Assembly: GCA_021806615.1 (NCBI GenBank)
Contig: JAJZRB010000002.1
Location: 1 to 54,528 of the forward strand
DNA: 54,528 bases
Direction of reading: 5' to 3'
Source of the DNA: a bacterium
Lineage (GTDB): Bacteria; Patescibacteriota; Patescibacteriia; Patescibacteriales; UBA12465
The notes below the pieces were generated by a model that was given only the letters and a program-made list of their open reading frames with translations, was not told where the DNA came from and made no database searches. Shown piece by piece: positions 18,756 to 21,911 of this stretch (positions are counted from its first letter, which is position 1; every line of letters starts with the position of its first letter). The position numbers were made by a program, and so were the translations under genes.

Positions 18756-19646
18756 ATGAAAGTCGCGGTCTTAGGTCCGATCGCCAAAGACTATGTCACG
18801 ATAGACGGCCGGCGCTCGATCCAAATAGGCGGCATACCTTACTATGTCGCTTTAGCGCTCCAAGCTCTGGGAACCGAGGAAGTCGCTCCTTATGTTAGTT
18901 GCGGCCCAGAAGATAGAAATTGGGTCCAAGATAATTTTTCCGGATTAAACCTTAAATTTCTATCGGCGCGTAAGACAATAGAATCGTATATAAGTTACTC
19001 GGCTTCTGATCCGGACACTAGAGACAGCAATATCAAGTCATATCCTAATACGATCGAAGCGGAGACTAGATTGCTCCAAGAACTGGAAAAATTCGATCAT
19101 ATCATCCTCGGTCCGTTATTCCATGACGATATTTCCTTCGAACTGTTTGAAAGGCTGAAGCATAAACTGTTAGCCATGGATAATTTCGGCTTGTTTACTT
19201 ATAACGAAAACGGGCGGATGATCAGGAAAAACCCGGAAAATTTACATCGGGTCCTGCCATTTTTGAATTATTTATTTTTAGACAAGAGCGAGGCCTTTTT
19301 TGCCAGCGGATACGAAAATATTAAAGAAGCCGGCCGCTTTTTACAAGCCAAGGGTCTTGCTAATATGATTATTACTGAAGGTTCGCAGGGTTCGCACCTC
19401 TTTGTCGGTCCTGATTACTATAAGATTCCGTCTTTCCCGCCGCGCCAAATCGCCGACACGACTGGCGCCGGCGATACCTATATGGCGGCTTTTATCAGGG
19501 CGACGGAATTATTTGATGATCCGGACGAACAGGGCCGTTTTGCCGCCATGGTCGCGACCATGTCTTTAGAGAATAAGGGAGCATTCCGAGAGAACCTAGA
19601 GAAAGTCTTAGAACGCTTGGGACAGATGAGAGGCTTGAATTTTTAA
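18756..19646 (+). CDS. PfkB-family sugar/nucleoside kinase
   Basis: ATP-dependent kinase of the ribokinase/PfkB family, 296 residues. The N-terminus MKVAVLGPIAKDYVTIDG followed by GGIPYYVALAL is the substrate-binding part; ITEGSQGSHLF and the signature DTTGAGDTYMAAF (about 234-246) give the anion hole and catalytic Asp. The substrate could be ribose, adenosine or another sugar; sequence alone does not say. Last gene of its unit. No terminator follows; the trp leader promoter comes immediately after. Confidence 0.85.
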   Translation: MKVAVLGPIAKDYVTIDGRRSIQIGGIPYYVALALQALGTEEVAPYVSCGPEDRNWVQDNFSGLNLKFLSARKTIESYISYSASDPDTRDSNIKSYPNTIEAETRLLQELEKFDHIILGPLFHDDISFELFERLKHKLLAMDNFGLFTYNENGRMIRKNPENLHRVLPFLNYLFLDKSEAFFASGYENIKEAGRFLQAKGLANMIITEGSQGSHLFVGPDYYKIPSFPPRQIADTTGAGDTYMAAFIRATELFDDPDEQGRFAAMVATMSLENKGAFRENLEKVLERLGQMRGLNF

Positions 19647-19654
19647 CTTTGCTA

Positions 19655-19663
19655 TGTTATTAT
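19655..19663 (+). promoter_or_regulatory. Extended -10 promoter of the trpL-trpB unit
   Basis: TGTTATTAT, an extended -10, lies 9 nt before the leader-peptide ATG. The predicted transcript start (about 19670) falls within a few bases of that ATG, so the leader peptide may be read from a leaderless or nearly leaderless mRNA. Confidence 0.55.
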
Positions 19664-19672
19664 AAATTTACT

Positions 19673-19732
19673 ATGAATAACAGTTTCCGGACAATCAGTC
19701 AGGTCTGGTGGACTGCCCATAATATTGGGTAG
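19673..19732 (+). CDS. trpL: trp leader peptide with tandem Trp codons
   Basis: Short ORF not in the track: MNNSFRTISQVWWTAHNIG, then TAG. Two adjacent TGG codons (19706-19711) abut the first stem segment of the attenuator and the stop codon (19730-19732) lies within the second. This is the layout of leader peptides that sense charged tRNA-Trp in classical trp operons. It has no Shine-Dalgarno. Trp is rare in proteins, and two in a row at exactly this position upstream of trpB makes chance unlikely. Function as a Trp sensor is inferred from architecture. Confidence 0.85.
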   Translation: MNNSFRTISQVWWTAHNIG

Positions 19733-19796
19733 TCGTTTTTTGCGTTGGATCCAACTAGTTCAGACTGCCCGATATTTGCTAAGAGGGCAGTTTTTT
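19711..19796 (+). promoter_or_regulatory. Tryptophan transcription attenuator of trpB
   Basis: Four segments are seen. Segment 1 is GACTGCCC (19711-19718), segment 2 GGGTAGTC (19727-19734), segment 3 GACTGCCC (19763-19770, identical to 1) and segment 4 GGGCAGTT (19785-19792), followed by a T run to 19796. The alternative pairings are 1:2 with 3:4 (terminator), or 2:3 (antiterminator). A ribosome stalled at the Trp codons would cover segment 1 and free 2 to pair with 3, allowing read-through. A ribosome reaching the stop codon covers segment 2 and lets 3:4 form. A T tract also follows 1:2. A perfect palindrome GTTGGATCCAAC (19744-19755) lies between segments 2 and 3. Confidence 0.85.
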
Positions 19797-19916
19797 ATTA
19801 CCTAAAATCATTTATGTATTACTATTTCCAAAACCGATCGACCGAACGATGGCGACTCGAGCTATCAGTTTAAACGCCAGTCTTTTATTATTAATTAAAG
19901 ATTTAAATTCAATCAT

Positions 19917-21137
19917 ATGAAAAATACTATCGTTAAGACCGCGACTTCCTTTAAGTCGCTGCCGGATCAGGCCGGCTATTTCGGCCAGTATGGCGGCCAG
20001 ATCATCCCGCCGGAATTAAAACCTATCTTTGATGAAATCGCAGAAGAATATCGCCGAGCCCAAGCCGATCCGGCTTTTCGGGCGGAATATGAAAAGCTCC
20101 TGAAAGATTATGTCGGTCGGCCGTCGCCTTTATACTATGCCCGTAACCTCTCGGAAAAGTTAGGCGGCGCCAAAATTTACTTGAAACGCGAAGATTTGAA
20201 CCATACTGGCGCGCATAAGATAAATCATACCCTGGGCGAGGCGCTCTTGGCTAAACGGATGGGGAAGAAAAAATTATTAGCCGAAACCGGCGCCGGCCAG
20301 CACGGCGTAGCGCTGGCGACCGCCGCAGCCTTGGTCGGGATCGATTGCGAAATACATATGGGAGAGATAGATATCGCCAAACAACATCCGAACGTCATCC
20401 GCATGCAGCTTCTCGGCGCGAAAGTCGTGGCAGTCAAGACTGGCGGCCGGTGCCTTAAGGACGCGGTGGACAGCGCTTTCATGGCTTTTATCCAGGACCC
20501 GAAGAATATCTTCTTTGGCATCGGTTCCGTCGTCGGGCCGCATCCTTTCCCGATGATGGTCCGTGATTTCCAGTCCGTTGTCGGACGTGAAGCGCGCGGA
20601 CAGATATTAGAAGATGCGGGCCGTTTGCCAGACTATCTTATCGCCTGCGTCGGCGGAGGCTCGAATGCTATCGGCCTCTTTCATGAATTTTTAGACGATA
20701 AAGAGGTTAAGATGGTGGGCGTGGAGCCGAGCGGCCGGAGCTTCAAGCCGGGCGAAAACGCCGCGACCCTGACTTTGGGCCAGCCGGGCAATATCCACGG
20801 CATGTTTACCTATCTGCTCCAAGATGAGAAAGGAGAGCCGCTGCCAGTCCACTCTATTGCCTCCGGGTTAGATTATCCCGGCGTCGGGCCGGCCCACTCC
20901 GACCTGAAAGATAAAGGGCGGGTTAGCTATGAGGTGGCAAGCGATGAAGAGGCTCTCCAGGCTTTTCAAGATTTATCCCGGATAGAGGGCATCATACCGG
21001 CTTTAGAGAGCTCTCACGCCTTAGCCTATGCTTCTAAATTAGCGCCTGCATTAAGCCCGGATAAGATTATGATCGTCAACCTTTCCGGAAGAGGCGACAA
21101 AGACATAGACTATGTCGCTGAGAGACTGGGGATGTAG
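19917..21137 (+). CDS. trpB: Tryptophan synthase beta subunit
   Basis: PLP enzyme condensing indole with L-serine to tryptophan. It has 406 residues and is TrpB1-like: [12 protein letters not shown] at the N-terminus, [10 protein letters not shown] with the PLP lysine (K101), AETGAGQHG with the catalytic Glu (E123), GGGSNA phosphate-binding loop, [12 protein letters not shown], and SGRGDKD. No trpA or other trp gene is in the window, so it may use scavenged or externally produced indole, or a partner elsewhere. It is preceded by the leader peptide and attenuator, and followed by a terminator at 21192-21218. Start ATG follows AATCAT with no Shine-Dalgarno. Confidence 0.95.
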
Positions 21138-21191
21138 GGATTGGAGGGCGGCATAATGGTCGTCGTGGTGATAAAGACTAATAAAAATCAT

Positions 21192-21218
21192 AAAAAACGA
21201 GCGGCAAGCTCGTTTTTT
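21192..21218. terminator. Bidirectional terminator after trpB
   Basis: AAAAAACGAGC (21192-21202) pairs with GCTCGTTTTTT (21208-21218) around a 5-nt loop. Confidence 0.85.
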
Positions 21219-21230
21219 ATCTCCTTAATG

Positions 21231-21265
21231 AAAAAAGACAGTTATTCATTGGTTTAACTGTCTTT
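21231..21265 (-). terminator. Terminator of the SWEET-like gene
   Basis: On the minus strand AAAGACAGTTA, which includes the stop codon, pairs with TAACTGTCTTT around a 10-nt loop and is followed by T residues. Confidence 0.75.
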
Positions 21266-21901
21266 GTATTTCCTAAGTAGGATGCTTAGCGGCAGAAGCA
21301 GGGACAGGCCGATGGCGCTGGATGCTTGGAAGGCCCAATCTCTGGTCAGTATGCCATAAATAAGCCAAGAGGCATTAGTTACGACATATACGTCGATCAG
21401 CTTCGGCTCCAAAGAGCCTCTTTTCTTATGGATGATGAGGACGATGAGCTGCCATAAGATGCCGATAAGGACGACCGAGGCGCAGCCCATATAAGCCAGC
21501 TTCTTATCGGGCATGATGATTATGAGAGGTATCATCAAGGAGAAGGCTAGGATAGATAAATAATCAATGGCGCTGATTTTTTTATATCTCCAAGCGGCGA
21601 CAAGGACCCCGAGGATGAAGAACGCGCTCAAGCCGTTAAAGGCGATAGATAACTTGCTGGTATATAGCCCGTATAGTATGGCGATGAGCAGATAAAAAAA
21701 ACTGAAGACGAAAAAAGGAATGATTATCAGCTCAGCCGACTTCTTCCGCTTTATAGTTTTTATCTGCTGCGTAATCCCCCACATTTGGTAACTGCTGAGA
21801 CTGATGGAGAGTAGGGCACTCGCGGTTGTTAAATTGAAGCCTAGATTTTTGGCTTCAACGGAGTTTGTAAAGAACTGCACTATGGCCTGTATTGTTTCCA
21901 T
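21254..21901 (-). CDS. Seven-TM SWEET/PQ-loop-like transporter
   Basis: Membrane protein of 215 residues with about seven hydrophobic segments. Two related triple-helix units can be seen. The first has QIKTIKRKKSAELIIIPFFV ... LYGLYTSKLSIAFNG, the second IIHKKRGSLEPK ... VTNASWLIYGILTRDWAF. This is the layout of SWEET sugar facilitators (3+1+3), whereas most bacterial homologues are three-helix SemiSWEETs. Substrate is unknown. ATG 21901 is chosen over the track's GTG at 21907 because GGAGGTGAT, a near-perfect anti-SD match, lies 5 nt upstream. It is convergent with trpB and transcribed separately. Confidence 0.65.
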   Translation of the reverse strand: METIQAIVQFFTNSVEAKNLGFNLTTASALLSISLSSYQMWGITQQIKTIKRKKSAELIIIPFFVFSFFYLLIAILYGLYTSKLSIAFNGLSAFFILGVLVAAWRYKKISAIDYLSILAFSLMIPLIIIMPDKKLAYMGCASVVLIGILWQLIVLIIHKKRGSLEPKLIDVYVVTNASWLIYGILTRDWAFQASSAIGLSLLLPLSILLRKYKDS

Positions 21902-21902
21902 T

Positions 21903-21911
21903 ATCACCTCC
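21903..21911 (-). promoter_or_regulatory. Near-perfect Shine-Dalgarno for the SWEET-like gene
   Basis: GGAGGTGAT on the minus strand, 5 nt from its GGAGG core to ATG 21901. It decides the start and is the strongest SD in the window. Confidence 0.85.

Follow-up and report, generated by a model that had tools for sequence, protein, structure and literature searches.

A predicted tryptophan attenuator and a second conserved short ORF upstream of a lone trpB in Patescibacteria

In this study, a predicted ribosome-mediated transcription attenuator was found upstream of trpB in the window, that is, the whole 54,528-nucleotide stretch of patescibacterial DNA that was analyzed. The anatomy of this attenuator and its conservation can be stated with high confidence from sequence comparison, and we infer its action in the cell, wherein trpB would respond to charged tRNA-Trp (probability of this reading, about 0.92). 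In the region that separates the terminator from trpB, we found a second conserved short ORF (ORF2), which had been overlooked in the earlier note on this DNA. The attenuator represents a known kind, for which no report from this phylum was found; ORF2 is the more novel part and could be new in kind. A search for reports of attenuation, leader peptides, leaderless mRNA, trpB, or riboswitches in Patescibacteria or the Candidate Phyla Radiation returned none; the subscription literature was thinly covered, and an earlier prediction is possible. Regulation in Patescibacteria is almost uncharted. A 2024 perspective named it as open, with attenuation and tryptophan absent from its text, and stated that an inducible expression system for these bacteria is still to be developed (PMC11665869). 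The leader is a covariation-supported, predicted amino-acid-responsive RNA switch; it would imply transcription-translation coupling in Patescibacteria cells and offers a natural Trp-tunable tool. ORF2 is a conserved short peptide with a directly testable role.

The lone trpB and its leader

The window belongs to a Patescibacteria genome of about 0.85 Mb whose closest named relatives are Falkowbacteria and Komeilibacteria, in agreement with the earlier note's description of a Patescibacteria-like genome. Its trpB (19917..21137, forward strand) encodes the tryptophan synthase beta chain, matched the NCBIfam model trpB TIGR00263 with 561.8 bits (cut-off 392.45), and is the only trp synthesis gene found. 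The gene that follows (21254-21907) is on the opposite strand, and trpB is thus monocistronic; an inverted repeat bordered by runs of T and A (21190..21220) is the probable terminator after it. The gene had been described as a lone trpB, and this description held: TrpA was found in none of the 39 genomes of the family by a search that was positive in 14/14 control genomes, and neither TrpC nor TrpR was found in the window genome. TrpB by itself is able to join indole and serine. Because the window genome has no TrpA, TrpC, or TrpR, its TrpB probably salvages imported indole, together with serine, to make Trp.

The leader peptide ORF trpL encodes MNNSFRTISQVWWTAHNIG and extends from ATG at 19673 to TAG at 19732 (19673..19732); like all leader elements described here, it is on the forward strand. 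Its tandem Trp codons (19706..19711) run into segment 1, GACTGCCCA (19711..19719), and its stop codon (19730-19732) is inside segment 2, TGGGTAGTC (19726..19734), which is followed by a T6 tract (19736..19741). Segment 3, GACTGCCC (19763..19770), pairs with segment 4, GGGCAGTT (19785-19792), to form the terminator 3:4; segment 4 runs into another T6 tract (19791-19796; 19785..19796 in total), which provides the U tract upstream of trpB. The leader ORF, Trp codons, four segments, position of the stop codon, and both T tracts had all been claimed earlier, and each is present in the sequence. Segments 1 and 3 are near copies of each other, as are segments 2 and 4. Segment 2 retains TAG because this is the trpL stop codon, resulting in wobble pairing with G in segments 1 and 3. 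Segment 4 is unconstrained and can be a perfect partner, so that 3:4 would be the better helix on segment 3, judged by sequence alone.

A promoter is predicted upstream of trpL, TTGAAT-17-TATTAT with TG before the -10 (19635..19663, forward strand). Transcription in the window is expected to start at about 19670-19673, at the leader ATG or 2-3 nt before it. A sigma-70-type promoter (TTGACA/TATAAT-like, with the two boxes 16-17 nt apart) that ends 6-9 nt before the leader ATG was found in 22 of 28 leaders, compared with a mean of 2.1 and a maximum of 7 in shuffles; the same placement before trpB and ORF2 was found in 3 or 2 of 25. A Shine-Dalgarno-like string was present at trpL in one of 28 leaders. 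Given how closely the promoter precedes the ATG in most leaders, trpL is probably translated from a leaderless mRNA.

Conservation, folding, and proposed mode of action

The earlier note predicted that leader ORFs with WW and covarying segments 1-4 would occur at related trpB genes, and this was found to be the case. Upon reading of the upstream regions, WW or W leader ORFs were seen before trpB at about 30 Patescibacteria loci. Their Trp codons are located at segment 1 and their stop codons within segment 2 or adjoining it; the encoded sequences include WWTAHNIG, WWTTHNIG, WWTAQNIE, WWTTSLWR, and WWKDFKGWRSL. In an alignment of 14 loci (A1), helix 3:4 showed two-sided compensatory changes at five of seven pairs, with 96.9% of cells paired, and none of 500 shuffles equaled it in paired percentage, in two-sided cells, or in covariation score. 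Two-sided changes were also found at 5/7 pairs of the antiterminator 2:3 and at 5/8 pairs of helix 1:2, both of which beat all slid versions. Across 111 genomes of the order, the strong matches of the element were all directly before trpB. A search of these genomes for other attenuator targets gave weak matches only, and the three of these that were read (L183, L179, and L184) proved to be plain terminators without a WW leader. The N-terminus of trpL, N-[KR/S]-[FL]-[QR], is also kept upstream of WW, for example in L001, L002, L013, and L097, a conservation beyond what simple codon counting requires.

A T4-T7 tract stands directly behind hairpin 1:2 in nearly all leaders, and some near relatives (L004-L007 and L018) have a single Trp codon only. 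Both features would be consistent with a leader that senses translation in general, via 1:2 and its T tract, instead of the Trp codons specifically. Nevertheless, this explanation is improbable, considering that Trp codons are kept at segment 1 throughout the roughly 30 leaders, that the regulated gene makes Trp, and that a sister genus has a T-box in place of the leader. The chance is slighter still that the hairpins, located about 120 nt past the stop (19646) of the upstream pfkB-family gene, are the ordinary terminator of that gene accompanied by a chance WW ORF, as the comparative data already contradict it: leader ORFs with WW were found repeatedly at trpB behind unrelated upstream genes, 2:3 and 1:2 covary as 3:4 does, and the predicted promoter is between the upstream gene and the leader.

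The complete leader was more stable than all 200 dinucleotide shuffles (fold z = -3.45), and the four-segment layout, in which 1:2, 2:3, and 3:4 share segments, was never matched when the 128-nt sequence was dinucleotide-shuffled 300 times. When a strict automatic test with a threshold of helices of six strong pairs was applied to 35 loci, 0/300 was obtained at 13 of them (the window locus and 12 others); the other 22 fell short, partly because the helices there are shorter than the six-pair threshold. The terminator hairpin 3:4 had an energy of -12.7 kcal/mol. After a ribosome footprint was masked up to the Trp codons, 2:3 folded (-25.8 kcal/mol); after masking up to the stop codon, 3:4 formed. 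In masked-base folding, then, the leader adopted the two states that had been expected when a ribosome occupies the Trp codons or the stop codon. Folded as a whole and without constraints, the leader had its energy minimum in 1:4 enclosing 2:3, a consequence of the near identity of segments 1 and 3 and of segments 2 and 4, and the attenuator states show only once the ribosome footprint is masked. According to this modeling, a finished ribosome-free RNA would favor 1:4 around 2:3, yet 1:2 would be made first during transcription.

In the ribosome-mediated attenuator proposed here, transcription would begin at the trpL ATG or no more than 2-3 nt away from it, and the leaderless mRNA would then be loaded with a ribosome. 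When Trp-tRNA is scarce, the ribosome is predicted to stall at the two Trp codons and cover segment 1; the antiterminator 2:3 would then form, and the polymerase would read through to ORF2 and trpB. When Trp-tRNA is plentiful, the ribosome would reach the stop codon in segment 2, 3:4 would pair, and transcription would end at about 19791-19797. An untranslated leader would form 1:2, whose own T tract may pause or terminate the polymerase. After readthrough, TrpB would combine serine with imported indole to make Trp.

ORF2 between the terminator and trpB

ORF2 (19814..19873, forward strand) encodes MYYYFQNRSTERWRLELSV and is a candidate regulatory or arrest peptide. Among the Patescibacteria loci examined, 25 contain it, and it keeps its place even where a T-box has replaced trpL. 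Its Trp is invariant in the 24 compared rows; a Phe eight residues before this Trp is present in 23 of these rows, and a Thr or Ser three residues before it in 22. In frame, the pN/pS of ORF2 was 0.41, compared with 1.23 and 0.80 in the other two frames; past the Trp and its neighboring codon it rose to 1.07. These values are descriptive because the rows are related. The peptide constraint reaches one codon past the Trp and is followed by a tail of 1 to 13 codons. When all loci, with 1.58 million frame positions in total, were scanned with the motif profile, the trpB-associated copies all scored at least 22.3, and nothing outside trpB leaders scored above 17.4. A degenerate ORF2 pattern gave 26 matches in 381 genomes. 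Those at a trpB leader were the known copies; nine of the others were read and rejected, as they did not look like stand-alone ORFs and were mostly, it appeared, inside other genes. A hairpin from TGGCGA to a downstream TCGC was recurrent by eye, but was rejected as a general second terminator because the fold z was unsupportive, averaging -0.52 for the 42 nt after the ORF2 Trp and -0.12 for the stretch from ORF2 to trpB. No conserved RNA structure was found at ORF2. At two loci (L003 and L014), ORF2 and trpB share a reading frame that is not interrupted by a stop codon.

About eleven constrained residues up to one codon, followed by a free tail, is the pattern that an arrest peptide would show, and ORF2 is possibly such a peptide. 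TnaC (PMC8429421) is likewise a short leader peptide, and it too has a link to Trp metabolism and an important Trp residue; in contrast, no sequence similarity between the two was seen, and only the constraint pattern of ORF2 fits TnaC-like arrest. As a tentative proposal, to which we give rather less than even odds, Patescibacteria trpB may be under two-step leader-peptide control, wherein the leaderless trpL attenuator is followed by ORF2 as a new Trp-linked family of arrest peptides with the motif [FY]xF-x-[NHDQ]-[RKH]-[CSA]-[TS]-x-x-W-[RQ].

The main alternative is that ORF2 is a microprotein whose action is on TrpB or in trans, and not a leader or arrest peptide that works in cis. Its constraint is at the peptide level, it was found exclusively with trpB (which has no trpA in the window's family), it continues into trpB in L003, and trans-acting trp leader peptides are known (peTrpL, PMC7298713). 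We regard this explanation as unlikely, at about one chance in four, because a constraint that stops one codon after the Trp and leaves a tail of such variable length is better explained by a nascent chain that extends up to a stall site.

Related systems and variants of trpB control

The earlier note labeled the leader as enteric-type. With respect to its logic, the label was appropriate: similar to E. coli trpL (Rfam Trp_leader), the window leader has tandem Trp codons at segment 1, a stop codon in segment 2, mutually exclusive helices 1:2, 2:3, and 3:4, and a U-tract terminator. In other respects the label did not fit. Compared with E. coli trpL, the window leader has a leaderless mRNA, a T tract after 1:2, a single gene (trpB) under its control, and a second conserved ORF behind the terminator, and its genome is without trpR. 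Moreover, at the gathering threshold no Rfam family, including Trp_leader, was found in the window, and nothing was found at the trpL leaders of relatives.

The trp attenuators of Actinobacteria such as Corynebacterium and Streptomyces also have double or triple UGG and classic alternative hairpins, and in C. diphtheriae a trp attenuator is also found before trpB2A (PMC1262725); the Patescibacteria versions differ from these in being AT-rich, in lacking trpA, and in the presence of ORF2. The rnTrpL/peTrpL system of Sinorhizobium meliloti shares a leaderless attenuator mRNA that starts at the trpL ATG and the lack of TrpR repression, whereas it controls trpE(G) and has no ORF2 (PMC7298713). The trpRBA operon of Chlamydia trachomatis is similar in its reduced genome and indole salvage, and an attenuator between its trpR and trpB has been predicted without firm proof; it differs in that it keeps trpA and has a large intergenic region with YtgR control (PMC6504234).

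The earlier note also took the leader as evidence of retained control in a reduced genome, which the distribution does not suggest. trpB is patchy, being present in 15 of the 111 genomes from the order, 33 of the 381 from the class, and 25 of the 380 in the phylum sample. In a TrpB tree (FastTree only), the leader-bearing Patescibacteria mix with Actinobacteria, eight of whose sequences (L026, L051, L072, L074, L078, L079, L080, and L090) are inside the trpL-bearing Patescibacteria group. One of these, Leucobacter L090, has a leaderless leader, MRIANQWWTA, in the same arrangement before a TrpB of the same wider clade. Considering the patchy distribution of trpB, the actinobacterial members of the TrpB clade, and the WWTA leader of Leucobacter, horizontal spread of trpB together with the attenuator is plausible.

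In one sister genus of the same family (L008, L009, L011, and L012), a T-box (RF00230) was found instead of the attenuator, with E values of 2.7e-9 to 2.2e-6, below the gathering score. It is located some 170-330 nt upstream of trpB, and ORF2 is retained downstream of it. At the expected position of the specifier loop, these T-boxes have a conserved GUUGGGC, and UGG is a plausible specifier. No T-box antiterminator with GGUGGNACCGCG was found in the window. The presence of a T-box in the attenuator's place provides an independent argument for control of trpB by tRNA charging.

Other Patescibacteria have trpR-trpL-trpB operons, with trpL directly behind a TrpR-like gene (L028, L032, L100, L106, and L121), a layout paralleled by that of Chlamydia trpRBA; in four of the five, the leader ATG overlaps the trpR stop. 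TrpR was confirmed by PF01371 for all of these except L032, and also for the upstream gene of L029. One salvage gene thus appears with three interchangeable solutions: the attenuator, the T-box, and TrpR plus attenuator. CTAG palindromes were seen by eye at the promoters of L028, L029, and L032. A further locus, L125, appears to have the order trpS-trpL-trpB, its upstream gene having been named by eye as a tryptophanyl-tRNA synthetase.
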